NCBI RefSeq assembly: GCF_032814565.1
Contig: NZ_CP136521.1
Span: forward strand, 3,568,501 to 3,632,500
Direction of reading: 5' to 3'
Source: Hwangdonia lutea
GTDB lineage: Bacteria; Bacteroidota; Bacteroidia; Flavobacteriales; Flavobacteriaceae
Length of the DNA stretch: 64,000 bases
The notes under the pieces are model-generated. The model was not told the origin of the DNA. It saw only the letters and a list, made by a program, of their open reading frames with translations, and did no database searches. The translations under genes were made by a program, and so were the position numbers. Positions within the stretch are counted from its first letter, which is position 1. Every line of letters begins with the position of its first letter. Of this stretch, positions 1,142-18,548 are shown piece by piece.

Positions 1142-1786
1142 ATGATTAATTTAAAAGAAAACAATAAAGTACGAATTTATGGAGCTGGCGGTCATTCGCA
1201 AGTTATAAAGGAAGTTTTGCAAGAAAATAATTTTAATGTTATTGAAACTTTTGACGATAACCCTTCGGGAAGCCACCATGCATCTAAAAATGTTGTTATG
1301 GGTGCTAGAGGAGATTTAAAAAAATTCCCTCATAATGGACCTCCAGTAATCATAGCGGTAGGTATAAACTCAGATAGGGCCGAAATTGCTGGCTTTTTAA
1401 AGTGTAAATATGGAAAAGCGATACATAAGTCGGCAATTATTTCCTCGACTTCAAAAGTTGGAGAAGGCACTGTAGTTTTTGCTGGAGCAATTATACAACC
1501 CAACACAACCGTTGGTAAACATGTAATTGTTAATACTGGTGCTAGTATTGACCACGATAATGTTATTGGTGATTTCGCACATATATCGCCAAAAGCTGCT
1601 CTATGTGGTCATGTTGAAGTTGGTGAAGGCTCACATGTGGGTGTCGGAGCCGTTGTGATTCCAAAAGTAAAAATAGGAAAATGGTGCACTATTGGAGCTG
1701 GCACCATAGTTATCAGGGATATACCCGATTATTGTACTGTTGTAGGTAACCCTGGAAAAATAATTAAAAGAAACATGCCAAAGTAA
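1142..1786 (+). CDS. PglD/NeuD-type sugar O/N-acetyltransferase, first copy
   Basis: This 214-residue protein has the PglD/NeuD architecture. An N-terminal Rossmann-like subdomain (YGAGGHSQVIKEVL, about residues 13-26) binds the nucleotide sugar, and left-handed beta-helix hexapeptide repeats fill the C-terminal half. The motif SIDHDN contains the histidine expected to act as catalytic base. Family members acetylate the amino group of UDP-4-amino-sugars using acetyl-CoA. The stop codon overlaps the start of the next gene (TAATG), which indicates translational coupling. The partner PglE-type aminotransferase and PglF-type dehydratase are not in the window and may lie to the left. Confidence 0.9.
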   Translation: MINLKENNKVRIYGAGGHSQVIKEVLQENNFNVIETFDDNPSGSHHASKNVVMGARGDLKKFPHNGPPVIIAVGINSDRAEIAGFLKCKYGKAIHKSAIISSTSKVGEGTVVFAGAIIQPNTTVGKHVIVNTGASIDHDNVIGDFAHISPKAALCGHVEVGEGSHVGVGAVVIPKVKIGKWCTIGAGTIVIRDIPDYCTVVGNPGKIIKRNMPK

Positions 1787-4446
1787 TGTTTAGAGACTCT
1801 AAAAAAATATCAGATATTTCCTTTATTGGTTCCGGAATTTCGGCATCATTTACTATTTTAAATTTTCTTGACCTCATTAAAAATAGTCCAAAATTAAAAA
1901 ACAGAATATCAATAAATCTTATTGATAAATTCCCTGAATTTCATACAGGTATTCCTTACGGAGACAGATCTGGTTCAACAACACTCTTGATAACATCGTT
2001 GAGAAATTTTTTGCCAGAACCTGAACTTAATAAATTCATACTATGGTTAGATGCAAATAAAGAATGGCTTTTAAAGGAATTTAAAAATGAAGGCGGCATT
2101 TTGTCTGAAAAATGGCTAGCTAAAAATAGAGTTGCTATACAAAATAACAAATGGAAAGATCTTTTTATTCCTCGTCGATTTTTTGGCTACTATATTAATG
2201 AAATGGTTGAAAGCAACATAAGGGATTTAACAAATACAAATGCCATTAAAGTTAATTACATAACTGCAGAAGTTTTAAACCTAAGTAAAAAAAACAACAC
2301 CTACACCATTACTTTAGGTAACAACAAGCAAATTTTATCAGAAAAGGTTATACTATCGGTAGGCTCATTACCTGTAAACAACCTATGGAAAAATGAAGCT
2401 TTAATTGAAGAACAAAACTTAATGTTTGTCAACACTCCTTATGAACCTAAACTTGAAGTTACGCTAAAAAATGTTAATCGGTTTACAAAAAACAGATCTC
2501 ACAAAGAAACTAATGTACTAATAATTGGTGCCAATGCAAGTGCACTCGAAATACTGTATAAGTTAAATGATGTTTCAAATGCTGGTGATTATATCCCAAA
2601 TAATTTTGTGTTTTTATCTACTCAGGGTAGAGCTCCGGATGCCGTAATTGATAAAAAAAGGAAAAAGGACTTTAAACCGATTCATTTAATTGAACTTCAA
2701 AATGCAAACTCTTTAACTGCAGAATCTATAGCAGAAGCTACATTTAAAGATATTAATTTATCCGATGATATTAAACTAGGTGCGGCATCTACGGTGGATA
2801 TTATATCATCAGCTTTTGGCAGATTATTGGAGAAACTTAACGAATCGGAACTTGAAAAATTTGCCTGTTTTTATGGTAACGAAATAGGAAAAAAACAACG
2901 TTGCGCGGGTGTTCACTACTCCAATACCATAGAAATGCTTAAAATGGACAAGCGTTTTGAGCATATTGCCGGTAGGTTTGTTGATCTAGAAAAAAAGAAT
3001 AACAATTACTTTTTAAAATATCTGGACACGAACACAGGGGAAACTAAAACATACAACAAAGAATTCAATTTAATATTTAATTGTATTGGAGGCAAAAACC
3101 TAACGCAAAACGACGTACCAAAATTAATTTTAAATTTAATAGAGAATGGCTATTGTAAACCAAACAAGTCTAAAATAGGATTTCATGTTAACCACAATTT
3201 TGAAGCATCAAGTAACTTACACGTTATGGGACCTTTGTTAGCAGGTAATGTAATTGATAATAAAGCTGTTTGGCATGTTGAACATTGTGGAAGAATAATT
3301 TCGATATCTCAAATACTTGCTAAAAACATTCACAATTACTTTCTGGAAAAAGATAATAATGTTGAAATTTCTCAAACTAAAATTAATTGCAAAGAAAAAG
3401 AAAGCAAAAAGGCATACTTTGAAGCAATAACCAACAAAACAGATTGGGATGCTTTTTTAAATAATATCGAGTCTTATGACTTTTACCATACCTACGATTA
3501 TCATAAATTATCGGCATCAGAAACCGAAACGCCCATACTCTTAAAATATGTAAATAAAGAAGTTCAAATAGGTTTACCGCTTTTGATACGAAACATACCA
3601 AATTCTGATTATAAAGATGCTACTTCCGTTTATGGTTATGTTGGGCCAATATCCAAAGGTGTAAACGCATCTTTTGACAATTTTAAATTTTCAAAAGGGA
3701 TAACCAATTATTTTAATAATAATAATATAATCTCTGTTTTTTCCAGGTTAAATCCTTATATAGAATTCCAGCATGCTATACTAAAGAATTTTGGAGAAAT
3801 TGTTCCGCAAGGCAAAGTGGTAAACATAGATCTTAGTTTGGACTTGGATTCGCAAAGGAAAAACTATAGAAACCGACTTAAAACCCATATTAATAAAGCA
3901 AGAAGATTGTGCACTGTAAAAGCATCCTCTAGCCATAAAGATTTACAAAAATTTATTGAACTGTATAATGAAAATATGGATCGAGTAAATGCTAAAAAAT
4001 ACTATTATTTTAGTAAAGCTTATTTTGAAAATATTCTAAAAAGTAACGATTTTGAAACCACTATTTTATCGGTAATAGATAACGAATCGGGAGAAGTTAT
4101 TGGCGCCAGCATGTTTATTGCTACTAATTCCATATTACAATATCATTTATCCGGATCTAAAAACGAATATTTACATTTAATGCCTACAAAATTATTGATT
4201 GATGAGATGAGAATAATCGCCAAAGAAAAAGGCTGCTTTAATGCTTTTAACTTAGGTGGTGGTTTAGGCGGTAGAGATGACGATTCATTATTTCATTTTA
4301 AATCGTCGTTTTCAAAAGATTTCAAACAGTTCAATTTATGGAAATTTGTCGTTAACCAAGAAATTTATGATGAGCTCGTAGAAATTCATAAAGTAAATGC
4401 CAATACAGATTATTTTCCAAATTACAGGTCTAATGAAATAATCTAA
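1786..4446 (+). CDS. Fusion of an FAD/NAD(P)-binding domain and a FemAB/BioF2-like acyltransferase domain
   Basis: This is an 886-residue two-part protein. Residues 1 to about 520 resemble the FAD/NAD(P)-binding proteins of Pfam family FAD_NAD_binding_9. They have a dinucleotide-binding glycine motif near the start (FIGSGISAS, about 13-21), the segment FHTGIPYGD and a second Rossmann motif (LIIGANASALE, about 245-255). Residues from about 540 to the end form a GNAT/FemAB-type transferase domain with the characteristic ending FNLGGGLGG followed by FKSSFS. The start is fixed by the TAATG overlap with the preceding gene. Each half is recognisable; the combination is unusual. Possible roles are oxidation or hydroxylation of a substrate followed by its acyl transfer onto a sugar, but no reaction is proven. 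Confidence 0.75.
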   Translation: MFRDSKKISDISFIGSGISASFTILNFLDLIKNSPKLKNRISINLIDKFPEFHTGIPYGDRSGSTTLLITSLRNFLPEPELNKFILWLDANKEWLLKEFKNEGGILSEKWLAKNRVAIQNNKWKDLFIPRRFFGYYINEMVESNIRDLTNTNAIKVNYITAEVLNLSKKNNTYTITLGNNKQILSEKVILSVGSLPVNNLWKNEALIEEQNLMFVNTPYEPKLEVTLKNVNRFTKNRSHKETNVLIIGANASALEILYKLNDVSNAGDYIPNNFVFLSTQGRAPDAVIDKKRKKDFKPIHLIELQNANSLTAESIAEATFKDINLSDDIKLGAASTVDIISSAFGRLLEKLNESELEKFACFYGNEIGKKQRCAGVHYSNTIEMLKMDKRFEHIAGRFVDLEKKNNNYFLKYLDTNTGETKTYNKEFNLIFNCIGGKNLTQNDVPKLILNLIENGYCKPNKSKIGFHVNHNFEASSNLHVMGPLLAGNVIDNKAVWHVEHCGRIISISQILAKNIHNYFLEKDNNVEISQTKINCKEKESKKAYFEAITNKTDWDAFLNNIESYDFYHTYDYHKLSASETETPILLKYVNKEVQIGLPLLIRNIPNSDYKDATSVYGYVGPISKGVNASFDNFKFSKGITNYFNNNNIISVFSRLNPYIEFQHAILKNFGEIVPQGKVVNIDLSLDLDSQRKNYRNRLKTHINKARRLCTVKASSSHKDLQKFIELYNENMDRVNAKKYYYFSKAYFENILKSNDFETTILSVIDNESGEVIGASMFIATNSILQYHLSGSKNEYLHLMPTKLLIDEMRIIAKEKGCFNAFNLGGGLGGRDDDSLFHFKSSFSKDFKQFNLWKFVVNQEIYDELVEIHKVNANTDYFPNYRSNEII

Positions 4447-4535: not shown

Positions 4536-5587
4536 ATGTTATCAAGAATTAAAAATCTAAATGTATTCTTAAAAGACCCGGACAAAAAAAAAAATTAAAA
4601 ATAATCAAAGAAGTTATTCATTTTTCGTGGATAAAGAAAGCCCTACCAACCGATTATTTTAGAAAGTATTTGTATCGAAATGATGTGACTGATTACGCAA
4701 GTTATTTATCATATAAGGAATATAATAGTATATTGTCTTCCAAACAATTAGTGTTTCCAGAAATATCTTCTATACTAAATAATAAATTAAGTTTTAGTTT
4801 AATGTGCCAAACAAATAAAATTAAAACTCCTGAATTGTTTAGTTATCACGTAAAAAACACATTTTATTTTAACGATAAAATCTTTGTGATAAAAACCGAA
4901 AATGATCTTTTAAATTTTTTTAAAAACGTTTTCAAAACACTAAAAATTGATGCGCTTTTTTTAAAACCTATTCAAGGTATTGGAGGGCAGCATTGTATCT
5001 TATTAAAAAAAAACAATGCAAAAGCGCAAATACAACTTGCAAAAAAAACACTTTTAAAGGCTAGTTATTTACATCAAGAGTGTATTAAACAACATGCTGA
5101 AATAAACAAAATACACGCTAAATCCATAAACACATTAAGATGTGTTACATATATTGATAAAGAAGGTAAAACACAGATTATTTCAATGTTCATGCGATTT
5201 GGTATTGGAAATAGTGTAACCGACAACGTAAGCAGTGGTGGTTTTTATGTTGCGGTAAATACCGAAACAGGGGTTTTACAAGGTCAAGGAAGGCAAAGTG
5301 TTGTAATGGGCGGCCAAGTGTTTTACAACCATCCAAATTCAAATTTTAAACTGGATGGCTTTAAAATTCCGTATTTTAAAGAAGCTTGTGAACTGGCTAA
5401 AAACGCAACTTTATACTTTCCTAGTAGAATTATAGGTTGGGATATTGCCATAACCCCCTCTGGTCCTATTATTATTGAAGGAAATCACAATCCGGATTTA
5501 CAAATTTCAGATACTGCATACGGCGGTTATTGCAAAAGCCCTATTATAAAAGAAATTTTAAAGGACATTAATACTACATCTGCGTAA
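4536..5587 (+). CDS. Sugar-transfer-associated ATP-grasp ligase with a probable frameshift in an A11 tract
   Basis: The C-terminal part (frame open from 4553, ending at 5587) looks like the ATP-grasp proteins found in polysaccharide loci. It has LKPIQGIGG (nucleotide-binding lysine and glycine loop), INTLRCVTYI, and GWDIAITPSGPIIIEGNHNPD with the metal-binding acidic residues. In this frame the first usable start is a weak TTG at 4670. A good ATG at 4536 opens another frame that encodes MLSRIKNLNVFLKDPDKKK and then stops just after a run of eleven A (4584-4594). One extra A would join both frames into a continuous protein of about 350 residues, so the gene is frameshifted, slippage-dependent or mis-sequenced. 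Its role is probably ATP-dependent amide or ester formation on a sugar. Confidence 0.7.
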
Positions 5588-5590: not shown

Positions 5591-6895
5591 ATGTTATTAT
5601 TTACAAACCCAAGGTTATTTGCTTTTAATGTATTTGACATCTTTAATGGAAATAAAAAAAGAAAACAATTAAATGATGTGAAAACTATTATTGATAACAC
5701 TTCGGCAAAATATCTTCATTACAAGACAAATAAATACCTTTCAGAAGTTTTAAACCATGCCTGTACTACTACACCTTTTTATAAAAAATTTGCGGGTACT
5801 AAAAACTTAGAAGATTGGTCGGTAATTAATAAAAATATAATCAAAGGTAATTTTAACGAATTTGAATCTTATACATATAAAAATCTTAAAAAAATCACGG
5901 TAAAAACAAGTGGTTCCACAGGAACGCCATTTATACTATACCAAGATGTTAATAAAACAAACCGCAATGAAGCAGATAATTTATATTTCTCTCAAAAAGC
6001 AGGTTACACTATTGGTAATAAGCTTTATTACTTTAGGCTGTGGAATGCATTTCACAAAAAAAGCTTTTTTGCTAAATGGGCACAAAATATAAAGCCCATA
6101 GATGTATTTGATTTAAACAACACTTACATTGAAAAGTTAATAACAGATTTAAAAAAAAACAAATCACCGAAAAGCTGGATAGGCTATGCTTCAGCATTCA
6201 ATCAAATTTGTAAATATTTAAATAATATTAACTCAGAGCCCATAAATTGTAATATAAAATCTGCAATAGCAATTTCCGAAAGCTTATCCCCTAACACAAA
6301 AAAAGATTTAAAAAAATTTTTTAATGTTGATACCGTATCGAGATATTCAAACGTTGAAAATGGCATTATAGCTCAACAACTTCCTAATAACTCTTACTTC
6401 GAAATCAATACAGCAAGCTATTATGTTGAGGTTTTAGAACTTAATTCAAATATGCCGGTAAAACTTGGTGAAAAAGGTAGAATTGTAATTACCGATTTGT
6501 TTAATTACTGTATGCCAATGATACGATACGATACTGGAGACATTGGATGCATGGGTCATGCAGATGATAAGCTTGTTTTAACACAAATTGAAGGCAGGAA
6601 AATTGATTCAATAACAAATACTGAAGGTGAAATAATATCCAATAATCTACTTTTATTAATTAATAAATATCATGAATTAAATCAATGTCAACTCATTCAG
6701 AAAACAAGAAGAGAATATGTTTTCAAAATAAATATTGACGGAAAATTCAAAAATGAAAAACAGTTTATTAACGAGTTTAAATCGCATTTAGGAAAAAATG
6801 CCATAATAAACATAAACTATGTTAAAGAAATCCCGTTGTTAGCATCTGGGAAAAGAAGAGTTATGGTAAATGAATATAATAAAAGCCTAATGTAA
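5591..6895 (+). CDS. CapK/PaaK-like adenylate-forming enzyme
   Basis: This 434-residue protein belongs to the phenylacetate-CoA ligase/CapK group of adenylate-forming enzymes. It carries the phosphate-binding motif KTSGSTGTPF (about residues 103-112), a later IRYDTGDIG motif typical of the ANL superfamily, and a C-terminal LASGKRRV segment. CapK-like proteins occur in capsule loci and probably activate a carboxylic acid, but their acceptors are mostly unknown. It starts 3 bases after the ATP-grasp stop codon, so both are likely co-translated. The context suggests that it supplies an activated acyl group for one of the many acyltransferases downstream. Confidence 0.82.
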   Translation: MLLFTNPRLFAFNVFDIFNGNKKRKQLNDVKTIIDNTSAKYLHYKTNKYLSEVLNHACTTTPFYKKFAGTKNLEDWSVINKNIIKGNFNEFESYTYKNLKKITVKTSGSTGTPFILYQDVNKTNRNEADNLYFSQKAGYTIGNKLYYFRLWNAFHKKSFFAKWAQNIKPIDVFDLNNTYIEKLITDLKKNKSPKSWIGYASAFNQICKYLNNINSEPINCNIKSAIAISESLSPNTKKDLKKFFNVDTVSRYSNVENGIIAQQLPNNSYFEINTASYYVEVLELNSNMPVKLGEKGRIVITDLFNYCMPMIRYDTGDIGCMGHADDKLVLTQIEGRKIDSITNTEGEIISNNLLLLINKYHELNQCQLIQKTRREYVFKINIDGKFKNEKQFINEFKSHLGKNAIININYVKEIPLLASGKRRVMVNEYNKSLM

Positions 6896-7074
6896 ATAAT
6901 TTTAAAATAGTTATGGGTAAGAAAGAGCTTTATTTATAGAAAAAAAATTATTACTTTCATTGAGTGATTACTTAACTTTTAACCCTAAACATAGAAGAGT
7001 TTTATATGAAATGAGTACAAAAAATCTAAAGAATTTTACAGGCGTATATATTACATAAAAAACAATCGATTATT

Positions 7075-7776
7075 TTGAAGACTTTTAATAAACAGAATAT
7101 TGTAATTATTGGCGCATCTGGACATGCCAAAGTTATCATAGATATAATTGAAAAATTAAACCATTTTACTATTGTTGGTTTAATCGATTCCTATAAACCT
7201 ATCGGAACTCAAATATTTGATTATATGGTATTGGGTAGAAAAGAGGATGTTCCTTTGTTAAAAAAAACATATAACTTTAATAAAGGTATTATAGCCATAG
7301 GTGATAATTGGGCACGTAAAATAAATTATGAAAAGTTGACCACTATCGATCCGGATTTTGAATTTATAAGTGCTGTTCACCCTAATGCGATTATTGGCAA
7401 AAACGTAAGTATTGGCATGGGTGCGGTTATCCTTGCAGGAGTTATTATTAATAGTGATGCTATTGTTGGTGACTTTTGTATTATTAATACCAAAGCATCA
7501 CTTGGGCATGATAGTCAAATAAAAAAATACTCAAGCTTAGGACCAAATGCTACAGTTGGTGGTCATGTATCTATTAAAACCTGCACTTATATTGCTATGA
7601 GCGCTACTATAATACAAAGCATTAAAATTGGTAAACATTCCATTGTAGGTTCTGGAGCTCTAATTGTTAGAGATGTGCCAGATTTTAATATGGTTTATGG
7701 TGTACCCGGAAAATTTATTAGAAAAGTAGCTAAAGCCGAAAAATACTTTTATCATAAAAATAATACTAATACATAA
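7075..7776 (+). CDS. PglD/NeuD-type sugar acetyltransferase, second copy
   Basis: This second PglD-like protein (233 residues) has the N-terminal nucleotide-sugar motif VIIGASGHAKVIIDII and hexapeptide beta-helix repeats from about residue 100. The candidate catalytic histidine lies in LGHDSQ. It is clearly distinct in sequence from the copy at 1142, so the two may act on different amino sugars or with different acyl donors. No ATG precedes the conserved motif in frame after the last stop; the start used is TTG at 7075. A 180-base gap precedes the gene and contains an open frame of about 45 codons without a proper start, possibly a gene remnant. Confidence 0.87.
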   Translation: MKTFNKQNIVIIGASGHAKVIIDIIEKLNHFTIVGLIDSYKPIGTQIFDYMVLGRKEDVPLLKKTYNFNKGIIAIGDNWARKINYEKLTTIDPDFEFISAVHPNAIIGKNVSIGMGAVILAGVIINSDAIVGDFCIINTKASLGHDSQIKKYSSLGPNATVGGHVSIKTCTYIAMSATIIQSIKIGKHSIVGSGALIVRDVPDFNMVYGVPGKFIRKVAKAEKYFYHKNNTNT

Positions 7777-7820
7777 CTTTTCTCGTACAAAAGAATTTTA
7801 CCAAACAATTAAGTAAACTC

Positions 7821-9068
7821 ATGATAAAAAGCAACCCTTTTTTTTCTTTAATCTTTATTAAAATATGGCATAGACATTTTAATACTGAAAAACCATTATA
7901 TAGTTTTAATTTTATTAAAAACATTTCTTTTTATAAACCTAGCCCCTTCCCCTTATTTATCAATTCAGGTAAAAACTTAACTAAAGGAGTTTCATATAAT
8001 TTAGATACCGAAAACGGAGAAATGGATTTTAAATCCAAATGTTTTTTAATCTATGATGTTCCGAAATTTTTTAATGTTAATACAACCAGCAGTAACAAAA
8101 ACCTAAAAGTAAAGAAAGTAAAACAATACCCTGGTTTTTTAGTCCAATTGGGAAAACATAACGACTTCAACACGTACTTTAAGTCAACTTTCAGCAAAAG
8201 TAGTGTCCAAAAATTTAGAAGATACAATCGGCGTTTGGAACATTGTTTTTCAATTACCTATAAAATGTATTATGGTGATATTGACAAAAAGGAATACGAT
8301 TTCGTTTTTAGCTACTTTAATACATTATTAACCAAAAGATTTGATGATAAGCAAATAACAAACAACAATTTAAACCCAAAGGAATGGGATTTTTATTACG
8401 ATGTGGTTTATCCCTTAATTTTAGAAAAAAAAGCCTCTCTTTTTGTTATCTATAATGATGGGGTTCCTATTACCGTTCGTTTAAACTATTTTTCTGAAGA
8501 TATTATTTTTGATGCCATAACCGTTTTTGATATAGATTATAGCAAGTTTCACATTGGAAAAATTTCCATAATGAAAATATTGGAATGGGCTTTTGAAAAC
8601 GATTTTAAAGTCTTTGATTTTACAAAAGGATATTTCGACTACAAAGTGAAGTGGAGTGATTTAAAGTACGATTTTGAATATCATATTTATTACGACTCAA
8701 AATCCATAATTGCTACGTTAACAGCTCATTTTCTTAATTCGTTTTTTCAACTAAAACAATATTTAAGAGAAAAAGATTTCAACACTAAACTGCATAAACT
8801 TTTGTTTTTTATTAAAAAAAACCAAAGCAATAATGCTGTTAGCTACAACATAAAACCAATTATTAAGAGTGAGGAATATAAATATGAAAAAACAGAAGAA
8901 ATTGATATAAACAAATCTAAAAACTCTTTTTTAAAAAAGATAGTTTTCGATTACCTGTATACAAGTTCAGAAAACCTGAAACATATCAATTTATTTAAAT
9001 GCAACACCGCTCCCAATACGTATGTTTTAATAGGTGGTAAAGAACCTCAAGTAATTACCTGCGTTTAA
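7821..9068 (+). CDS. FemAB/BioF2-like GNAT protein, paralogue 1 of 6
   Basis: First member of a tandem array of six related proteins (415 residues). The conserved core has, in order: a basic segment that begins the transferase domain (KFRRYNRRLE), YKMYYGDI (about residue 148), KKASLFVIYNDG (about 203), DIDYSKFHIGK and FDFTKGYFDYKVKWS (about 265-280). The last element matches the glycine/lysine/tryptophan ending of Acetyltransf_6 (BioF2-like) domains. A separate C-terminal segment of about 60 residues follows, predicted soluble, with VFDYLYTSSENLKHI. Its N-terminal 90 residues differ most from the other copies, and a 256-base gap separates it from copy 2, so it may be transcribed separately. 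The acyl or aminoacyl donor is unknown. Confidence 0.75.
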   Translation: MIKSNPFFSLIFIKIWHRHFNTEKPLYSFNFIKNISFYKPSPFPLFINSGKNLTKGVSYNLDTENGEMDFKSKCFLIYDVPKFFNVNTTSSNKNLKVKKVKQYPGFLVQLGKHNDFNTYFKSTFSKSSVQKFRRYNRRLEHCFSITYKMYYGDIDKKEYDFVFSYFNTLLTKRFDDKQITNNNLNPKEWDFYYDVVYPLILEKKASLFVIYNDGVPITVRLNYFSEDIIFDAITVFDIDYSKFHIGKISIMKILEWAFENDFKVFDFTKGYFDYKVKWSDLKYDFEYHIYYDSKSIIATLTAHFLNSFFQLKQYLREKDFNTKLHKLLFFIKKNQSNNAVSYNIKPIIKSEEYKYEKTEEIDINKSKNSFLKKIVFDYLYTSSENLKHINLFKCNTAPNTYVLIGGKEPQVITCV

Positions 9069-9324
9069 TCTAAAAAAACTACAATCACTCCTCAGTAAAA
9101 CAAACATATAATTAAGCTACAGAAGTAACACTTCTGTTTTATTAATTTATAAATAGGAAAATTTTTACTTTTTATAACCTCACTTGGTCAATTATTATTA
9201 CTTTTTATCTATTAAAGAGTAACACTAAACTTTATAATAATTACCTTTAAAATTTAAAAGCAACTTTTATTTTTTAACGTTATTTTACCAAAAAATTACT
9301 ACTTAGTTTTCAATTAAAATATTA

Positions 9325-10533
9325 ATGATAAAAAAAATACTTAATGTTGGACATCACAGCTTTAATTTTTTTGAAAACAGAAAACTACCTGATTTTTATA
9401 CTGCAATTCTATATAACGATGGTGTTAAAGATTTGATTTTTAAGGAATTTGAAAGCGCTAAAGTGTTAAGTGAGAATAAGTTACATCGCGTTTACAATAT
9501 TCCTCCTTATCTGGACTTATTGTTAGATAATACCAATACCTATCGTAAAATAACACTTCCAGAAATAGATAAAGGCTTACTGGTGGACATTAGCAAGTTT
9601 ACTACCATTGAAGATTATACGGCAAAACAATTTAACTCTAGAAAAAGAAAGCAAATGCGGTCTGCTTTAAAACGGGTCGAGACTTGTTTTAATATTGAGT
9701 ATAAATTTTATTTTGGAGAAATAAACAAAGAGCACTATGATTTTTTATTAAAAACGGCGCGCACCTTTATAAAGCGAAGGTTTGAACAAATAAATAAAAA
9801 TCATTTTATTCTTGCTCAGTGGGATTTAATTAATGACAATTTGTATTCTTTAATTTTAGAGAAAAAAGCCTCTGTTTTTGTGATTTATGACAATGACAAG
9901 CCTATCAATATTTGTTTTAGTTATCATTTTAATAAAATAACAAAGAATAAATTTGCCAGCTACGATATAGATTATGCAAAATTTAGCCTCGGAAGCATTG
10001 ACTTATACAAACAATTGGAATGGAATATCAACAAAGGTTTTAAAATTTTTGACTTGGCCATGGGTGCATCAAAATACAAATTTAAATGGTGCAATAGTCA
10101 CTATGATTTAAAGCATGATTTAATTGTAGAAAAAAAATCGGTTGTCAGTAATCTTTTGGGGGTGCTAATGTATGGCTATCTAAAAATAAAATTTCATGTT
10201 TTCAGGTATTACTACAAACACCCAAACAATAAGTTGCTCTTTTTTTTAAATAGGTTTATACCAAGCCCAACAAATGATAGTAAAAGCAATGAGGTAAACC
10301 CTATAAAAATTGAATCAAAAATTATTAAAGTTTTAGATTTTAAAACGCTTAACCTAAAAAAAATAGATATTGAAACCAAAACTTATGCATTTTTAAGGAA
10401 ACCATTTTACGATTTTTTACACGCTAACCCGGAGTTGAAAAACAACGTATTGATTTATAAATTGCATAATGAAGACAATAGCTATATTATAAAGGGAAAG
10501 AATAAGATTCAAAAGCTTATAATTATTAAATAG
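9325..10533 (+). CDS. FemAB/BioF2-like GNAT protein, paralogue 2 of 6
   Basis: This 402-residue copy opens the tight part of the array; the next gene starts 9 bases after its stop. The core motifs are KRKQMRSALKRVE, YKFYFGEI, KKASVFVIYDND, DIDYAKFSLGSID and FDLAMGASKYKFKWC. The position after the glycine is SKYKFKW, keeping the lysine and tryptophan common to the family. The C-terminal domain is present and ends with IIKGKNKIQKLIIIK, very like copies 3, 5 and 6. The 256-base upstream gap is a plausible promoter region for copies 2 to 6, although I find no clear TAnnTTTG box close to the start. Confidence 0.75.
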   Translation: MIKKILNVGHHSFNFFENRKLPDFYTAILYNDGVKDLIFKEFESAKVLSENKLHRVYNIPPYLDLLLDNTNTYRKITLPEIDKGLLVDISKFTTIEDYTAKQFNSRKRKQMRSALKRVETCFNIEYKFYFGEINKEHYDFLLKTARTFIKRRFEQINKNHFILAQWDLINDNLYSLILEKKASVFVIYDNDKPINICFSYHFNKITKNKFASYDIDYAKFSLGSIDLYKQLEWNINKGFKIFDLAMGASKYKFKWCNSHYDLKHDLIVEKKSVVSNLLGVLMYGYLKIKFHVFRYYYKHPNNKLLFFLNRFIPSPTNDSKSNEVNPIKIESKIIKVLDFKTLNLKKIDIETKTYAFLRKPFYDFLHANPELKNNVLIYKLHNEDNSYIIKGKNKIQKLIIIK

Positions 10534-10542
10534 ATTAAATAT

Positions 10543-11718
10543 ATGGCGTTGAAAAACATTTGTAAATCAAATTTTTACTCAGATATTTTTGAAGAAAATG
10601 CTATTCCATCTATCTATGAAAAAATCAAACTAAAAGATAATGAGTATGCATTTTGTAGCCCCGGTACTAAAACACTACCAGCCTCAAGACTATATGCTTT
10701 TGAGTTGGTTCCTAACTATTTTGAGCTAGAAGTTAAAGATGGATATAATTGCAAAGAAATATTTCAAAAATATGGTTATGCTGTAAATTTAATGGGATAT
10801 AATTCGGTGGATAACTACCTTAAATCGGAATTTAAAACGAGTATTAGAAAAAACTTTAATCGTACAAAAAACAAACTTGAAAATTGTTACAATATTAACT
10901 ATGCATTTTTTTATGGCGCTATAAGCAACGAAGAATATTATGCGCTAATGCACGCTTTACACGAAATGCTAAAAAAAAGGTTTAAAGAGCGTAACGACAG
11001 AAACCCTGTACTGGAAAATTGGGAACATTATGTACAAAACACACTTCAACTTATAAATAGCAAAAAGGCATCTTTACTTGTAATTTTTAGTGATAATGAA
11101 CCCGTTGCAATAACCTTAAATTATCATCAGGGAAAAGTAATATATAGTGCGATTGCTTCATATAATATAGATTTTTACAAATACAGCCTTGGCAATCTTA
11201 TGATTTACAAGCTTATAGAGTGGGCTATTTTAAATCATTACGTACTTATTGATTTGGGCTACGGAAATTTTAGTCATAAACAAATCTGGAACAATAAAAG
11301 ATATAGTTTCAACAACCATGTAATACATTCAGAAAATGTATGGTTTGGAAAATTATATGCTGTCTTTATTCATTATAAATACCAATTAATAAATTATTTG
11401 CTTTCTAAAAAAGTAAATGTTTATTACAAAAATTTCAAACAGTTTTTTAAAGGGATTCCAAAGGAAGAACCATTGGATACTTTTAAATTTGAAACTATCA
11501 AAATCAACCACTTGTCAAATGAAGATGTTAAAAGTCTCAACCTCATAAACTTTAAAAAAGAAGATTATTTGTTTATGAGAAAACCCATTAACGATTTTAT
11601 TTACTCCAATAACAATCACATAGATAATATGTCTATTTTTAAGGCGAAAATCCAGGATAATATTTTTTATATAAAAGGTGAAAAGTGTTCAATAAAATTA
11701 ACCTACACCAAAAATTAA
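10543..11718 (+). CDS. FemAB/BioF2-like GNAT protein, paralogue 3 of 6
   Basis: This 391-residue copy has the recognisable core IRKNFNRTKNKLE, YAFFYGAIS, KKASLLVIFSDN, NIDFYKYSLGNL and IDLGYGNFSHKQIWN. In the last motif the usual Tyr-Lys is replaced by His-Lys-Gln, a local deviation near the presumed active site. The C-terminal domain (about residues 310-391) contains FMRKPINDFIYSNNN and ends with IKGEKCSIKL. It begins MALKNICKSNFYSDIF, and copies 5 and 6 begin with a related MALL/MGLF...DFYNT pattern, so copies 3, 5 and 6 also share their N-terminus. Confidence 0.75.
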   Translation: MALKNICKSNFYSDIFEENAIPSIYEKIKLKDNEYAFCSPGTKTLPASRLYAFELVPNYFELEVKDGYNCKEIFQKYGYAVNLMGYNSVDNYLKSEFKTSIRKNFNRTKNKLENCYNINYAFFYGAISNEEYYALMHALHEMLKKRFKERNDRNPVLENWEHYVQNTLQLINSKKASLLVIFSDNEPVAITLNYHQGKVIYSAIASYNIDFYKYSLGNLMIYKLIEWAILNHYVLIDLGYGNFSHKQIWNNKRYSFNNHVIHSENVWFGKLYAVFIHYKYQLINYLLSKKVNVYYKNFKQFFKGIPKEEPLDTFKFETIKINHLSNEDVKSLNLINFKKEDYLFMRKPINDFIYSNNNHIDNMSIFKAKIQDNIFYIKGEKCSIKLTYTKN

Positions 11719-11733
11719 GGTTTACAATGTGAA

Positions 11734-12660
11734 ATGACACAATTAAGAAAAGAACAATTTATATATGATTTTCTTCAAAATGGTAAAGCAATAGTACCAG
11801 GCTGTTATAAGTATATTTATGTAAATAATAAATCGTTTCTGAATAAAAAAGCATTTAAACCAAACCAATTAAGCGATGTTATTTATGTAAGCCTATTCCC
11901 TACTTTTTTAGATTTTAAAATTGTAAATGAACCCGCGTACCACTCAAAAAAAATAATACATCATGGTATTTCGGGTGCTGGTATATTACTGGATGAAAAT
12001 TACACCGTAGAATCATATTTGGACAAGCATACCAATAATAAGTTTAGAAAAAATTTACGAAAATATTTTACTGGACTTAAAGATTCTTGTAATGTAAGGT
12101 ACGTTTGTTACTATGGAAGGATATCTAAGGAGAGGTGTGATTTTTTACTTGATGCCCTCCGCGAAATGATAGAAAAGAGATTTAAAACCAAGAATGTTAA
12201 GCATGTTTTTATGGCGGAATGGGATAATAATGTTAAAGATTTGCACGAATTAATAAATCATAAAAAATCATCATTAATTGTAGTTTATGACGAAGATAAG
12301 CCTATAAGCATATCATTAAATAGGCACATAAACAACAGTATTTTTTTTGGTGAATTACACGCTTATAACGCAAACTACAGTAAGTATGGACTTGGACACA
12401 TAAATAACCACTTACGCTTAAACTGGTGCATCGACAATAAGTTTGATTTTATAGATTTGGGTATTGGTGTTTTTGATAATAAAAAAATATGGTGCAATGT
12501 GTTTTATAACGTAGAATACCATTTGTTTTATAAAAAAAAATCGCTTAAAACAAAAGCCATTGCTCTATTGGAAATCTATAAAATTAATTTTAAAAATTTT
12601 ATAAAGTCAAAAACTATTGGTTGTTCGATTAAAAAAATTAAAAGCTTCTTTAATCAATAA
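11734..12660 (+). CDS. FemAB/BioF2-like GNAT protein, paralogue 4 of 6, lacking the C-terminal domain
   Basis: At 308 residues this is the shortest copy. The transferase core is intact: FRKNLRKYFTGLKD, YVCYYGRIS, KKSSLIVVYDED, NANYSKYGLGHI and IDLGIGVFDNKKIWC. The protein stops soon after the core, and the C-terminal segment of about 80 residues seen in all other copies is absent. The next gene begins 20 bases later and the reading frame ends cleanly, so this looks like a stable deletion rather than ongoing decay. It therefore suggests that the C-terminal domain is dispensable for the transferase fold, or that this copy has a different partner. Confidence 0.73.
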   Translation: MTQLRKEQFIYDFLQNGKAIVPGCYKYIYVNNKSFLNKKAFKPNQLSDVIYVSLFPTFLDFKIVNEPAYHSKKIIHHGISGAGILLDENYTVESYLDKHTNNKFRKNLRKYFTGLKDSCNVRYVCYYGRISKERCDFLLDALREMIEKRFKTKNVKHVFMAEWDNNVKDLHELINHKKSSLIVVYDEDKPISISLNRHINNSIFFGELHAYNANYSKYGLGHINNHLRLNWCIDNKFDFIDLGIGVFDNKKIWCNVFYNVEYHLFYKKKSLKTKAIALLEIYKINFKNFIKSKTIGCSIKKIKSFFNQ

Positions 12661-12680
12661 AGAAAATTAAAAACTTATTT

Positions 12681-13853
12681 ATGGCGCTTTTAAACAAAGT
12701 AGATTTTTATAACACCTTTTTTCAAAAAGATAAAATTTCAACTGTATTCTCTAGACTATTTTATAAACACAATAATGCATTGTTTTACAGTTTAGAAAAG
12801 ACAGAGAAAAAAAATGATGAGGCCACAGTAAATTTCATTAGTTTATTTCCGCAGTACCTTTACCCTGAAATAAAACAAGCCCAAAACGTTAGAGTAAAAA
12901 AGATTCAACAAAAAAAACTTGATGGATTTGCTATTCTGATAAATGGCTTTAAAGATGTCGACACATATTTGGCAAACACCCTTAAATCTAGTACTCGTGG
13001 CCCTATTAAAAAGAAAATTAAGCGTTTAGAATTGTGTTTTAATATACACTACAAGATGTTTTATGGTGACATTTCTGAAGCCGAATACAATGTTATAATG
13101 CCTCAATTAAAGAGCATGATTGAGCGCAGGTTTACCGAACGAAATAACACTAACGAAGCTTTGGGCAAATGGGATTCGTATCTCAGAACAACACTATCAC
13201 AAATCAAAAAAAAGGAAGCTTCATTGTTTGTACTTTATTCGGCCGATGAGATTATTGGCGTATCTCTTAATTACCACATTAACAAGGTTTTTATCGGTCA
13301 TATTATTGCTTATAATATCGATTATTCAAAATTTGGCTTAGGTAACACCATCGTTTATAAATTATTAGAATGGAGCATTAATAACAATTACTCTATTTTT
13401 GATATGGGAAATGGGGCCTTAGACTATAAACGGATTTGGAGTAATTTGACTTATAATTACAATTATTATATAGTTTATAACACATCGTCATTTTTAGCCT
13501 TTATTTTTGGTAATCTGCAAGTTTTTAAAGTGCAGTTAAAAAACACTTTAAAAGTATTGAATGTGATTTATATTTACAGAAAAATTAAAGCACATATTTT
13601 CAATAAAAACAAGAAAGATACAAGCCTTCAAACATCAGTTAAATATGAAAAAATTAATATCGAAGCCTTTAAGAAATTAAGATTAACTAAAATTGAATAT
13701 CAAAATATAGAAGATAACCTCGTAAAAAAAGCAATAATAGATTTTACATTTGCGCATCAAAATCATATTAATGATATTGAGGTTTATAAATTAGATAGCA
13801 CCAGTTTTATTATAAGTGGGAAAAAAAGCATACAAAAAATTATAATCGATTAA
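12681..13853 (+). CDS. FemAB/BioF2-like GNAT protein, paralogue 5 of 6
   Basis: This 390-residue copy is complete. Core motifs are TRGPIKKKIKRLE, YKMFYGDIS, KKEASLFVLYSAD, NIDYSKFGLGNT and FDMGNGALDYKRIWS. The C-terminal domain runs from about residue 315 and ends with IISGKKSIQKIIID. Among the copies it appears closest to number 6: both share YKMFYG, the DYKR/EYKR motif before the final tryptophan, and a similar N-terminus (DFYNT). It lies 8 bases upstream of copy 6. This closeness suggests that 5 and 6 are a recent duplication within an older array. Confidence 0.75.
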   Translation: MALLNKVDFYNTFFQKDKISTVFSRLFYKHNNALFYSLEKTEKKNDEATVNFISLFPQYLYPEIKQAQNVRVKKIQQKKLDGFAILINGFKDVDTYLANTLKSSTRGPIKKKIKRLELCFNIHYKMFYGDISEAEYNVIMPQLKSMIERRFTERNNTNEALGKWDSYLRTTLSQIKKKEASLFVLYSADEIIGVSLNYHINKVFIGHIIAYNIDYSKFGLGNTIVYKLLEWSINNNYSIFDMGNGALDYKRIWSNLTYNYNYYIVYNTSSFLAFIFGNLQVFKVQLKNTLKVLNVIYIYRKIKAHIFNKNKKDTSLQTSVKYEKINIEAFKKLRLTKIEYQNIEDNLVKKAIIDFTFAHQNHINDIEVYKLDSTSFIISGKKSIQKIIID

Positions 13854-13861
13854 ATTACAAA

Positions 13862-15025
13862 ATGGGTTTATTCACTACACATGATTTTTACAATACACTA
13901 TCAAAAAAACACTTCGTGTTTGATATCTATGAAAAATTATTTCTTGCTCATAATAATTACGAGATTTATAATGCTAATCCTACAAATAATGCTAACGCAT
14001 TAAAAAAAGTATACACTTTTGATTTGTTTCCATCCTACTTAAAACCCATATATAGAAATCCTGAGCTTAATAAACTAAAAATAATACCCCAAAAAAAAAT
14101 TATTGGATACGCTATACAAATCAATGAAAATAAAGGGTTCAGTGATTTTTTTAAAAATGAATTTAGTAAAAGCTTTAGAAGCAATACAAGACGATTTGTA
14201 AATAGGTTTGAAGCATGTTTTAATGTAAGCTACAAAATGTTTTATGGCAACATTGATAAAACAGAATATAACACATTAATGAGTGCGTTGCACACCATGC
14301 TCACCAAAAGGTTTAACCAGCGTGAAGAATCCAACAAAATGCTTGAAAATTGGGAGTTTTATCAAGCAACAGCATTTAAAAACATCAACTCTAATAAAGC
14401 TTCTTTATTTGTTATATACCACGATAATATTCCTGTGCAAATATCGCTTAACTATCATTTTAACAATATCCTTTTTATAGCCATTCCGTCATACAATATT
14501 GATTATGCAAAGTTTTCATTGGGCAATATTTCCATTTATAAATTGTTGGAATGGGCGGTGACCGAAAACTACGATCTTATGGATTTAGAATATGGTTATT
14601 TGGAGTATAAACGAAGATGGAGCAATTATATTTATTCGTTTGCACACCATGTTGTTTACCCGAAAAACGATGTAAAATCTAACGTTGTTGCCACTATTTC
14701 AATTTTAAAACTCAAGCTTAAAAACTTCTTTAAATCAATACATGTTGATGAGCTTATTAAAAATTTAAAATGCTATTTTTATAAGCACAAAGGCACCTTT
14801 AAGGATATCACCTACACTACTGAGCCCATTCAATTTGATAACGCAAACAATCTAGAATCTTTAAATATAAACAGCCCGAAAGTTGTGGGTATTAAAAAGG
14901 CTATGTTCGATTTCCTTTTTATAAACAAAGAACATGTTAACAATTTAAAAATTTATGAAATAGTACCCTTTAAAGAGTATGTATTTAGCGGTAAATCCGT
15001 ATCTCAAAAAGTCGTTGTTTTATAA
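13862..15025 (+). CDS. FemAB/BioF2-like GNAT protein, paralogue 6 of 6
   Basis: This is the last copy (387 residues). Core motifs are FRSNTRRFVNRFE, YKMFYGNID, NKASLFVIYHDN, NIDYAKFSLGNIS and MDLEYGYLEYKRRWS. The third residue of the final motif is Glu rather than Gly, so the loop differs slightly from its siblings. The C-terminal domain ends with FSGKSVSQKVVVL. An A9 run occurs near codons 77-80. A gap of about 175 bases follows before the SGNH gene, and I saw no clear terminator hairpin in it. Confidence 0.75.
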   Translation: MGLFTTHDFYNTLSKKHFVFDIYEKLFLAHNNYEIYNANPTNNANALKKVYTFDLFPSYLKPIYRNPELNKLKIIPQKKIIGYAIQINENKGFSDFFKNEFSKSFRSNTRRFVNRFEACFNVSYKMFYGNIDKTEYNTLMSALHTMLTKRFNQREESNKMLENWEFYQATAFKNINSNKASLFVIYHDNIPVQISLNYHFNNILFIAIPSYNIDYAKFSLGNISIYKLLEWAVTENYDLMDLEYGYLEYKRRWSNYIYSFAHHVVYPKNDVKSNVVATISILKLKLKNFFKSIHVDELIKNLKCYFYKHKGTFKDITYTTEPIQFDNANNLESLNINSPKVVGIKKAMFDFLFINKEHVNNLKIYEIVPFKEYVFSGKSVSQKVVVL

Positions 15026-15199
15026 GCAGCCCTGTTTTTATTCAAAATTTCAAACCTCAAATTTTTAATAAATTAAAATGTTTACTTATCGAAAATCCCC
15101 TATTAAAAGCAAAAAGAATGTATTTAAACGATTATTAATTTAATACTTACAAATTGTAATTATATTTATCTTACAACTAAACTTTTATGCGTTAAAAAA

Positions 15200-16168
15200 A
15201 TGAAATTATTAATTGGTAAAATGATTTTATATTTTATACTAATCTTGGTATTCTTAGAGGTTTGCGTACGCGTTTTTCATCTGTATTTTGAATATCCAAC
15301 TTATTATATTAATGAGTTTAATGTAAAAACATATTTGCCAAAACAACAAGGGTACTACGTTACTGGCAACAGGCGGATGAATTATATAAAATACAATATT
15401 AATGACAGTGGGTTTAATTCATACAAAGAATACAACCCTACTAATAGCACAACAGATATTGCACTTATTGGCGACTCATTTATAGAAGGCTTTCATCAAG
15501 ATTATTATAAGTCAATTGGAAAAAAAATAGAAACCAAACTAAAAAACGCGGTAAATGTTTTTGAATATGGGCACTCGGGCTACGATTTGGCCGATCAATT
15601 ACACCTCATTCAAGCTTATCAATCACATTTTGAAAACATTGATTATATTTTTATTTATATTAAATTCAATAACGATTTAAAACGAGGAAAATATACTCCA
15701 AATCAGTGGCGGGTAGATTTACAAAATTCTTTCTCGTTTAAAATTAGAGACAAAATTAAATTAACTACCTATGCCGAAGGCATTGGTGTTTTTGAACCAA
15801 TTTTAAGATTAAGGGATAAGTTCTTTGGAATTATACCAGAAACATATAGTGATGACCCGGTTTCTGAAGCTGATGCCAAAAAATATTTAGTGAATCTTCA
15901 ATCGTTAGTTGATACGTATGGTTTTGACAAAACTAAAACTAGTTTTCTTCTTGATAAAGATAAAACAAGTACATATTTTTTAGATTATTGCGATAAAATG
16001 GGCTATAATTATGTAGATTTTGGTAAGGCATTCAAGCAATCGGACAAACCCACTACTTTAATCTACGATATGCATTGGAACAACCACGGTAGAAATTTAA
16101 TTGCCAACAGTATTGTTGACTATTTAAATAAAAAATTAGAAACTAAAAAAAACACAATCGAGAAATGA
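15200..16168 (+). CDS. Membrane-anchored SGNH/GDSL-type hydrolase
   Basis: This 322-residue protein has one N-terminal membrane anchor (about residues 8-28) and an exported SGNH-hydrolase-like domain. The nucleophile motif is ALIGDSFIEG (serine near residue 93), and the distal Asp-His block is YDMHWNNHGRN near residue 288. The family includes esterases and the acetyl transferases that pair with MBOAT proteins in alginate and peptidoglycan O-acetylation. A MBOAT gene lies 2.4 kb downstream on the opposite strand, so joint O-acylation of a surface glycan is plausible. The stop codon overlaps the next start by 4 bases (ATGA), which supports co-translation with the cupin protein. Confidence 0.8.
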   Translation: MKLLIGKMILYFILILVFLEVCVRVFHLYFEYPTYYINEFNVKTYLPKQQGYYVTGNRRMNYIKYNINDSGFNSYKEYNPTNSTTDIALIGDSFIEGFHQDYYKSIGKKIETKLKNAVNVFEYGHSGYDLADQLHLIQAYQSHFENIDYIFIYIKFNNDLKRGKYTPNQWRVDLQNSFSFKIRDKIKLTTYAEGIGVFEPILRLRDKFFGIIPETYSDDPVSEADAKKYLVNLQSLVDTYGFDKTKTSFLLDKDKTSTYFLDYCDKMGYNYVDFGKAFKQSDKPTTLIYDMHWNNHGRNLIANSIVDYLNKKLETKKNTIEK

Positions 16169-16995
16169 ATATTTTAAACGAAATTTTATCTCAAAGCATG
16201 CCCATTGAAGAGTGCACATCATTTGATTCTTCAACCTTTAAAAAAAAATATTACAATAAAAAACCAGTTGTTTTTAAAGGGCTTGCTAAAGATTGGGGAG
16301 CAACCAAAAATTGGGATTTAGAATTTTTGTTAAATTTAAAAGAAGACAAGGATATTCTTTTACTTTCTGGAAATTTTATACAAGATGATAACCGATACAC
16401 AAAGGCATCATTTAAAGATTACATTAAAAAATTAAAAACGGCTGATGCTAATAAAGAATCTTTCAAAGACTACTTAACCACGCTAAACATTTTTAATTAT
16501 TACCCACATTTAAAAAATGCCATTGATTTTTCTTTTTTTGAAACCTATAATAAAATAAATGATGTCACAGCTTGGATTGGCCCCTCAAATACAGTGTCGG
16601 GATTTCATAATGATACAGGTAAAAACATGTACGCCCAAATAAAGGGAAAAAAAATGTTTATACTTAGTTCTACTAAATTTAATAAGAAAATGTACCCGAG
16701 CGATAAATACATCAATGGTGCTGTAGCTAGTCAAGTCGACATAAATAATTTTGATGAGATTAAATTTCCTAAATTTAAAGATGTGAAATTTTCAAGTATT
16801 ACATTAGAGCCTGGAGATGTACTTCATGTACCATCAAAATGGTGGCATTATGTTCAGTCGTTAGACACGTCTATTAGCATAAGCAACTTTGGATACTCAA
16901 AACGGGAAATGTTTATTATTAAAGCAATTGATTATTTGCACAGACGCGGATATTATAAACCTAAAAATTGTTTTTGCTGTAATAATGACAAGTAA
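16165..16995 (+). CDS. Cupin-8/JmjC-like Fe(II)/2-oxoglutarate oxygenase family protein
   Basis: This 276-residue protein fits the cupin_8 (JmjC-like) family of Fe(II)/2-oxoglutarate-dependent hydroxylases. The iron-binding HxD motif is in GFHNDTGKN (about residues 147-149), and the distal histidine lies in VPSKWWHYVQ (about 226). The YAQIKGKKMFIL segment between them is typical of the jelly-roll. Family members hydroxylate proteins, peptides or small molecules. Within this locus it could hydroxylate an acyl or amino-acid substituent before or after attachment. It overlaps the genes on both sides, so it belongs to the same translational unit. Confidence 0.82.
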   Translation: MNILNEILSQSMPIEECTSFDSSTFKKKYYNKKPVVFKGLAKDWGATKNWDLEFLLNLKEDKDILLLSGNFIQDDNRYTKASFKDYIKKLKTADANKESFKDYLTTLNIFNYYPHLKNAIDFSFFETYNKINDVTAWIGPSNTVSGFHNDTGKNMYAQIKGKKMFILSSTKFNKKMYPSDKYINGAVASQVDINNFDEIKFPKFKDVKFSSITLEPGDVLHVPSKWWHYVQSLDTSISISNFGYSKREMFIIKAIDYLHRRGYYKPKNCFCCNNDK

Positions 16996-17503
16996 ATTAT
17001 TTGAAAAAAAGATATATTTTAACATTGTTGCTACATTAATATTAGTGCCAAATATTTTTGTCGCTATTATTGGTATTGAAACCTTTCCCTACACTTGCGC
17101 CCCTATGTTTGGGCATTATATTGATGACAACACCAATTTATACTTGTTAAAGTTTGAAGGTGTAAACGATTCTACAAAAACCAATTTAACAGAGTTTTAC
17201 GGCAAATCCGAAGATCTTTTTATAAGACATTTTTTTAGTAAAGTTTACGGCTCAACACACGCCATATCGCCATTTGATAGTAAATTATCAGAAAGTAAAT
17301 CCGACTTTCAATATAGAATGGACACATTTTTCAATCATTTTTCCACATTTATTTTAAGTGAATACAACCTTTCTTTTGACCAAATCAATTTATCTGTTAA
17401 AAATGTAGACCAAAACAGAAACATCATCACAGACTTTAAACCTATTGGCTATTTTGATTATAGCGATAAAAAATACCATACGTTTTATGAAAATAGCAAT
17501 TAA
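16985..17503 (+). CDS. Membrane-anchored protein of unknown function
   Basis: I do not recognise this family. With the start at the ATG at 16985, which overlaps the cupin stop codon by 11 bases, the protein has about 172 residues. A longer open frame starts at 16889, but its extra N-terminus lies inside the cupin gene and has no membrane-protein character. One hydrophobic segment (about residues 8-30) is followed by PYTCAPMFGHYIDD and a soluble remainder without recognisable catalytic motifs. The next gene overlaps its 3' end. The two are probably a pair, with this one a small partner of the HTTM-like protein. Confidence 0.6.
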   Translation: MTSKLFEKKIYFNIVATLILVPNIFVAIIGIETFPYTCAPMFGHYIDDNTNLYLLKFEGVNDSTKTNLTEFYGKSEDLFIRHFFSKVYGSTHAISPFDSKLSESKSDFQYRMDTFFNHFSTFILSEYNLSFDQINLSVKNVDQNRNIITDFKPIGYFDYSDKKYHTFYENSN

Positions 17504-18548
17504 ACTAATAGGTTTTTTAAGGTCTATATTAGCACAACCTTTAAGTATTTTAAGGTTTTTACTATCAATAGTAATGGGTAAATATGTGTTGGAACGTCTT
17601 AATGCTATTTTTCAATTAGAAAACAATCTACAGTATGCTCTATCAAAAACTTGGTTTACCAGCCTTTTACCCGATGTGTTTTTAGTACTTGATACAAACC
17701 TTTATACAACGGTTAAATTTTTGATTATAATTTCAGCCTTTGGTGCGGCGTTAGGTATTCTGGGTAGGTTAAATTTACTTATTCTTGCCCTTTCATGTTT
17801 TTACGTTTTTGGAGTTGGCGAGGGCATTGGTGTTTTCGATCACCACGCCTCATTACCCAGTCAGGTTATTTTTGCCCTAGCACTTGTACCGGGATCTATG
17901 ACATTGTCTATTGATTATCTCTTATTGCAATTTTATTATAAACGCAAAATGAAGATTTTAGACTTAGCAAGCAATCCAAAGTGGGGCTTGAATTTAATTT
18001 TGGCTTTGGTAGCTATTACTTACTTTTCCGCCGGCGTTTCAAAGCTCAGGTATGGCCATGGTGTCTCATGGTTGGATGGCTCAACTTTAGGGTTTTATTT
18101 AAAGGAAAGAACTAAAAATTATGATGCTAACGAATCTCAATTAATTATTGGTGATAGTAAAATTAAAGAAAATGAAAAATGGAAGGATGAATTTGGTTTT
18201 ATAGCTCATACTTATGGCAACTTTCAAACAAAAAAGAAACTAAATGATATTGCCGAATATATAGCGCGCAATAAATTTCTGGTTGTCGGCCTATCCATTG
18301 GCTCAGTATTGTTTGAATTACTTGCATTTATAGTGTTTATAAACACAAAATATAGAAATATATACCTTATATCTGCCATTATTTTCCATCTGTCAATTGG
18401 CTCTTTAATGGGTATTTCATTTCGGCAATATAGATTAATTTGTTTCTTCTTAATTGATTGGGATTTCTACTTAAGATTTGTTTTAAAAAAACTTAAATTA
18501 CAACATCTTTTAAACGAAAGCAGCAAAATCAAAATTGAAAGTAGATAA
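17487..18548 (+). CDS. HTTM-like polytopic membrane protein
   Basis: This polytopic protein of about 353 residues resembles the HTTM group related to vitamin K-dependent gamma-carboxylase. It has several long hydrophobic helices and the signature-like segment TYFSAGVSKLRYGHGVSW in the middle, where HTTM proteins carry a similar Gly-Lys-Trp loop. The ATG at 17487 gives a reasonable N-terminus and overlaps the previous stop; an earlier start at 17445 is less likely. Bacterial HTTM proteins are mostly uncharacterised. The 3' end overlaps the convergent MBOAT gene by 20 bases. The family assignment rests on my reading of one motif and the topology. Confidence 0.6.
   Translation: MKIAIKLIGFLRSILAQPLSILRFLLSIVMGKYVLERLNAIFQLENNLQYALSKTWFTSLLPDVFLVLDTNLYTTVKFLIIISAFGAALGILGRLNLLILALSCFYVFGVGEGIGVFDHHASLPSQVIFALALVPGSMTLSIDYLLLQFYYKRKMKILDLASNPKWGLNLILALVAITYFSAGVSKLRYGHGVSWLDGSTLGFYLKERTKNYDANESQLIIGDSKIKENEKWKDEFGFIAHTYGNFQTKKKLNDIAEYIARNKFLVVGLSIGSVLFELLAFIVFINTKYRNIYLISAIIFHLSIGSLMGISFRQYRLICFFLIDWDFYLRFVLKKLKLQHLLNESSKIKIESR

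Follow-up and report, generated by a model that had tools for sequence, protein, structure and literature searches.

Why should one glycan locus carry six consecutive copies of the same kind of transferase gene? The question is raised by a stretch of 64,000 nucleotides from Hwangdonia lutea (the window, positions 3,568,501-3,632,500; the genome is complete and measures 3.9 Mb), in which six paralogous open reading frames (ORFs) follow one another on the + strand at 7821-15025. A sequence-only reading had assigned them to a BioF2/FemAB-like GNAT family and proposed that they build an amino-acid or acyl chain on a sugar, one enzyme per step. We tentatively favor, with nearly as much belief as doubt, a related reading: that the array encodes Fem-type (double-GNAT) aminoacyl transferases which divide the labor of decorating a surface-polysaccharide sugar and perhaps extend a short chain on it.

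All six ORFs are intact, and all six products match PF13480 (Acetyltransf_6, a BioF2/CelD-like GNAT domain) with 28-50 bits against a curated Pfam cut-off of 22. PF13480 has eight matches genome-wide, seven of which lie within the array locus, and no NCBIfam family was matched by the array copies. The gap between copies 1 and 2 is 256 nt, and those between copies 2 to 6 measure 9, 15, 20, and 8 nt, in agreement with the 8-20 nt first reported. The ordered motifs that had been described for the family are real, but the regular expressions written for them were slightly too strict: copy 3 reads YGAI; copy 4 reads YGRI, KKSS, and NK in place of [YH]K; copy 5 reads KEAS; and copy 1 reads HIG. The window copies are strongly basic (net charge +13 to +25), have no evident membrane helix, and have a GC content of 27-29%, versus 32.5% for the window. 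Copies 1-3, 5, and 6 carry an extra C-terminal alpha/beta domain of approximately 80 residues, which copy 4 lacks, as does an entire clade of members of approximately 320 aa.

Any two copies are identical at 24-37% of positions overall and at 29-49% in the core, with low values in the N- and C-terminal parts; no direct DNA repeat of at least 22 nt between copies was found in 6880-15200. On these two grounds the copies are old and diverged, and we rejected recent tandem duplication or recombination for want of such repeats. Chance resemblance among the copies is excluded, because arrays of this family recur in dozens of other genomes.

These other arrays come from one scan of genome contigs, which yielded 77 related loci of one to seven copies each, all from marine Flavobacteriaceae or close metagenome-assembled genomes where named. 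The family is present in 77 of the 349 genomes of a Flavobacteriaceae sample (approximately 22%) and in 6 of 345 genomes of a phylum sample, five of the six being Flavobacteriaceae; five candidates per genome were scored in this sampling, which gives no copy numbers above five. The best named relatives of the array are those in Flavivirga sp. (copy 1 identity 60%), Mangrovimonas (59%), and Mariniflexile fucanivorans (56%). A tree of 257 members places the copy-1 homologues (70 sequences, 68 loci) in a single clade with support 1.00, and this clade stands first in 55/55 multi-gene arrays. The other copies fall into orthologous groups whose order is kept across genera. With '@' for the copy-1 clade and '.' for an unplaced member, the type '@ B L O H F C' occurs in five genomes, and its subsets '@ B L H F C', '@ B. 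H F C', 'B. H F C', and '@ B F C' occur elsewhere; the window array, '@. D P Q K', has the relatives '@ D. P S K' and '@ D Q K'. Pairwise order agreed in 61 of 63 comparisons among 25 distinct arrays (shuffles gave a mean of 36.7 and a maximum of 49), a figure that describes conserved order and is no test of function, since the arrays were treated as independent though they are related and shared descent contributes. The exceptions to the order are '@ E J' versus '@ J E', and '@ Q D S K'.

The fold of these proteins is that of the Fem enzymes. An AlphaFold (AF2) model of copy 6, built from 62 aligned relatives, has a mean predicted local distance difference test (pLDDT) score of 94.6 and is a double GNAT, with the C-terminal domain (approximately residues 318-387) also confidently predicted. 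Its best match in the PDB is Staphylococcus aureus FemX (6snr; Z 16.8 over 222 aa, root-mean-square deviation 4.0), followed by Weissella FemX, the peptide synthases Sbb17/Sba18, MprF, and FemA, all of them aminoacyl-tRNA dependent; coenzyme A (CoA)-dependent GNATs match lower, the first ones at Z of approximately 13. Foldseek was concordant (3e-8 to 1xf8). The CoA P-loop [QR]xxGx[GA] was found in the motif-A region of 0/257 relatives. Lys250 is invariant (255/255 relatives with a residue at that position) and is retained in all six window copies, and Gly221, Gly245, and Arg150 are 98-100% conserved among the 257. Both Lys250 and FemX Lys305 follow the same strand, in equivalent helices, a correspondence that is topological only and involves no residue alignment.

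Next to these invariant residues lie the positions at which the copies differ. The most group-specific positions include 222, 244, 246, and 247, which adjoin Gly221, Gly245, and Lys250; residue 244, with a mutual information (MI) of 2.10, is 90% conserved within groups and different between groups. Because these active-site-adjacent residues are conserved within groups and differ between them, they argue for different specificities of the copies. The fixed first copy, the conserved order, and the group-specific residues bear out the expectation that the copies are not interchangeable, and the comparison across loci shows the array to be a conserved device.

The array does not stand alone. The sequence-only reading had also pointed to a seventh FemAB-like domain, in the fusion protein encoded at 1786-4446, and this domain is a clear relative of FemX. 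The fusion matches PF02388 with 35.1 bits against a cut-off of 24 (E=8.9e-9); a profile of its C-terminal half and relatives matches PDB FemX at E=1.7e-12; HMMER aligns a conserved FK pair of this half on FemX F304-K305, so that the catalytic Lys305 is retained; and an AF2 model of it superposes on FemX with Z 26 over 309 aa. This half is nearer to FemX than the array copies are. An unfused homologue (cluster c3) immediately precedes the copy-1 homologue in 47/69 copy-1 loci, and the fetched DNA of 56/69 contains either c3 or the fusion cluster. When 16 genomes were searched whole, most of them picked for a c3 that was missing or stood apart, c3 was found in 13. We presume the FemX-like domain of the fusion to be the priming Fem enzyme. 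The flavin domain is free-standing in L099 (7136-8710) and L107, and fused in the window and in L084, with L104 listed among these loci; other genomes hold ORFs of 888-896 aa of the fusion kind.

The surroundings are those of a surface-polysaccharide locus, as had been supposed. In addition to the phosphoglycosyltransferase listed in Table 1, the locus upstream of the window encodes Wzx, a formyltransferase, a pyruvyltransferase, four glycosyltransferases, an EpsG-type polymerase, and a CE4-like deacetylase; the last lies approximately 8 kb before the window (L009:10197-11204), and its cluster occurs in only 5 loci. A CE4 deacetylase is the partner that would liberate the amine for a VimA-type transferase. 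SGNH-type proteins are present in 38/69 copy-1 loci, and several genera have minimal loci consisting of c3, copy 1, MBOAT, and SGNH (L037, L046, L051). The regular partners of the array are the FemX-like enzyme, the phosphoglycosyltransferase, and the MBOAT/SGNH acyltransferase pair. The CapK-like and ATP-grasp enzymes, which the initial reading had taken as the activating machinery, do not hold this position: their clusters are sporadic, occurring in 9 and 4 loci only, and we rejected them as core partners. The matches of the CapK-like protein in NCBIfam (a DVU_1553-family AMP-dependent ligase at 1.7e-20 and PaaK at 4.8e-12) are both below their own cut-offs.

Table 1. Features of the window, with positions counted from its first nucleotide.
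Feature	Position	Strand	Evidence and remarks
PglC-type phosphoglycosyltransferase (initiating sugar transferase)	429..1061	+	PF02397 E=7e-59; in 42/69 copy-1 loci
PglD-like acetyltransferase	1142..1786	+	PglD_N and Hexapep
Fusion of a flavin/NAD(P)-binding domain and, from approximately residue 540, a FemX-like transferase domain	1786..4446	+	PF13454, PF02388, and PF13480 matches
ATP-grasp, sugar-transfer associated (ATPgrasp_ST), variable accessory	4670..5587	+	PF14397 E=1e-47; same cluster in 4 loci
CapK/PaaK-like adenylating enzyme, variable accessory	5591..6895	+	NCBIfam matches below cut-offs; same cluster in 9 loci
Second PglD-like acetyltransferase	7075..7776	+	PglD_N, Hexapep
Array copy 1, anchor clade, always first	7821..9068	+	415 aa; PF13480 E=1.1e-11
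Array copy 2	9325..10533	+	402 aa; PF13480 E=5.2e-9
Array copy 3, orthologous group D	10543..11718	+	391 aa; PF13480 E=4.3e-13; group D in 11 arrays
Array copy 4, group P, without the C-terminal domain of approximately 80 aa	11734..12660	+	308 aa; PF13480 E=2.1e-6
Array copy 5, group Q	12681..13853	+	390 aa; PF13480 E=2.8e-12
Array copy 6, group K, usually at the end of arrays of its type	13862..15025	+	387 aa; PF13480 E=1.9e-9
SGNH/GDSL-like protein	15200..16168	+	weak PF13472 match; cluster in 35 loci
JmjC/Cupin_8 2-oxoglutarate oxygenase	16165..16995	+	PF13621 2.7e-40; HxD...H present in sequence
HTTM membrane protein	17445..18548	+	PF05090 7e-9; cluster in 4 loci
MBOAT O-acyltransferase	18529..19980	-	PF03062 1.3e-28; MBOAT in 37/69 copy-1 loci

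The JmjC/Cupin_8 gene, found in 11/69 copy-1 loci, accompanies larger arrays (mean 5.5 versus 3.0 copies; Mann-Whitney p=4e-4, uncorrected for relatedness). It stands 3' of the array in the window and inside the array in three Arenibacter loci (L061, L082, L108). Adjoining it in the window (16889-18548), and likewise in L033, L076, and L103, are genes for an HTTM (vitamin-K-carboxylase-like) protein and a small membrane protein. Just upstream of c3, 18-20 loci (e.g., L059:7284-8904) have a pair of genes for a PylC-like ATP-grasp enzyme and a HAD phosphatase, which possibly makes a non-standard substituent. Secreted proteins are encoded nearby as well. Upstream of the window and on the opposite strand within the glycan locus, L009:12543-15140 encodes a leucine-rich-repeat protein that has a Por secretion tail and contains three long, nearly identical internal repeats, and L009:15635-17530 and 17796-19469, on the minus strand, encode two adjacent paralogous secreted proteins that are right-handed beta-helix-like by eye; the cluster of these beta-helix-like proteins flanks arrays in approximately 13 loci.

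The closest known systems are the FemABX enzymes (S. aureus FemX/FemA/FemB and Weissella FemX), which share with the array the double-GNAT fold, the presence of several paralogues with a fixed (in the array, presumed) order of action, and a basic, cytoplasmic character, with an invariant lysine that is comparable by topology only, and of which the C-terminal half of the fusion is a clear sequence relative. The array copies differ in matching PF13480 and not PF02388, in their location in a Gram-negative polysaccharide locus rather than in peptidoglycan synthesis, in numbering up to seven besides a separate FemX-like enzyme, and in the extra C-terminal domain. Among aminoacyl-tRNA-dependent natural-product enzymes, Orf11/Sbb17/Sba18, PacB, and DhpH are among the solved folds closest to copy 6 (Z 15.8-16.3), and DhpH has an essential lysine analogous to FemX Lys305 (PMC12945691); these, however, are single enzymes with small-molecule acceptors. 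HfsK of the Caulobacter holdfast has two tandem GNAT domains and a C-terminal extension, has FemX as its closest solved homologue, and acts on a surface polysaccharide (PMC5362036), but it is a single gene and a cyclic di-GMP effector whose product is not known. Within the Bacteroidota, VimA, a protein with the annotation of an N-acetyltransferase, governs the choice between serine and glycine for a sugar amine in Porphyromonas gingivalis and Tannerella forsythia (PMC7468200). By description it resembles the array members as a GNAT-type enzyme of a surface glycan, the linking sugar of A-type lipopolysaccharide (A-LPS); it is a single enzyme accompanied by WbpA/B/E/D and VimE, with no array. 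A Prevotella linking sugar bears alanine, by a route that is not known (PMC11969387). We found no paper on FemAB arrays in Flavobacteria, subscription journals being mostly outside the coverage of the search.

If the array copies are aminoacyl transferases, we suggest that their cytoplasmic substrate would be a sugar of a Wzy-type surface polysaccharide, linked to a lipid or a nucleotide, with aminoacyl-tRNA as the probable donor and a sugar amine as the probable acceptor; the setting in a polysaccharide locus argues against a peptidoglycan precursor in the latter role. The FemX-like domain of the fusion would most likely add the first aminoacyl group to the sugar amine and copy 1, the anchor, would act next, after which copies 2-6 would add further, different aminoacyl groups, probably at least partly on one another, to give a short defined chain. 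Hydroxylation of a residue may fall to the JmjC enzyme, and O-acylation of the glycan after export to the MBOAT/SGNH pair. In favor of this reading stand the ranking of the fold matches, the missing CoA P-loop, the invariant Lys250, the strongly basic charge, the FemX-like partner, the fixed first copy and kept gene order, the group-specific residue 244, the company of JmjC genes with larger arrays, the excess of Fem-type domains over expected sugars, and VimA as a precedent. The sequence-only idea is supported in part: family, fold, gene order, lack of interchangeability, and partner genes are established here, and the donor, the acceptor, chain building, and the sequence of action are inferred. 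A stronger version, in which up to eight Fem-type transferases (the FemX-like primer and the ordered array) form a template-free Gram-negative assembly line that builds a defined peptide from aminoacyl-tRNAs on the sugar, the residues following the order of the genes and the JmjC enzyme hydroxylating the product, we consider unlikely.

Several results weigh against the aminoacyl-transferase reading. None of the six copies matched PF02388 (FemABX) at E values up to 0.1, a PDB sequence search with the array profile gave only chance matches to ribosomal proteins, and profile alignment, even with a permissive setting, did not put Lys250 on FemX Lys305. The shared fold alone leaves the donor unfixed, and shared descent could by itself produce a conserved order. 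Moreover, many genomes have only copy 1, so that a chain is not obligatory. Alternatively, the copies might attach amino acids or other groups to different sugars of the repeat unit, each site being separate and no chain being formed, which we regard as rather unlikely. The VimA-type enzymes, which place a single amino acid on one sugar amine, provide a precedent for it, as do known marine O-antigens that carry single N-aminoacyl groups such as N-acetyl-alanyl, and it fits the free gain and loss of array members. Separate sites would not, however, require a strict order with a fixed first copy, and the four glycosyltransferases and one initiating transferase lead us to expect approximately five sugars against seven Fem-type domains, an excess from which chain building or shared sites would seem favored over seven separate sites.

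The donor is a further point of contention, for the array enzymes could be N-acyltransferases that use acyl-CoA or acyl carrier protein (acyl-ACP) to transfer acetyl or hydroxyacyl groups. Bacillosamine-type sugars with hydroxyacyl amides are known in the group, HfsK, likewise a double GNAT, is named as an N-acetyltransferase family member, and several arrays have acyl-making genes nearby (ketoacyl synthase III, c47; AMP-binding ligase, c25). These genes, however, occur in few loci (5-10) and do not track the array, and with the CoA P-loop lacking from every relative and the nearest folds belonging to aminoacyl-tRNA enzymes, we find this decidedly unlikely. Variation in copy number, from one to seven between related genomes, could also be read as the mark of largely redundant copies or of a pool of paralogues for antigenic variation, of which one or few act at a time. 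This is very improbable in view of the deep divergence of six intact, lysine-bearing ORFs, the occurrence of signature-bearing orthologous groups in fixed order, and the lack of shared DNA repeats of at least 22 nt between copies and of any invertible element noted. VimA and the Prevotella alanyl sugar had led us to consider a role in anchoring cargo of the type IX secretion system (T9SS) through an A-LPS-like linking sugar. The T9SS is far commoner in the phylum than the array, which occurs in approximately 22% of the sampled family genomes, and for this reason we do not favor such a role.

Fem-type enzymes are best known for one to three steps of peptidoglycan-bridge synthesis, and in glycans they are known mainly as single enzymes such as VimA and HfsK. 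Here a conserved, ordered array of up to seven occurs in approximately a fifth of the sampled Flavobacteriaceae genomes. Those genomes hold natural subsets of one to seven copies, a ready-made test of which gene adds what. The array suggests that these marine bacteria place amino-acid sequences, or patterns of several residues, on their surface glycans; if true, glycan diversity would arise in a new way, with relevance to recognition by phages and hosts.

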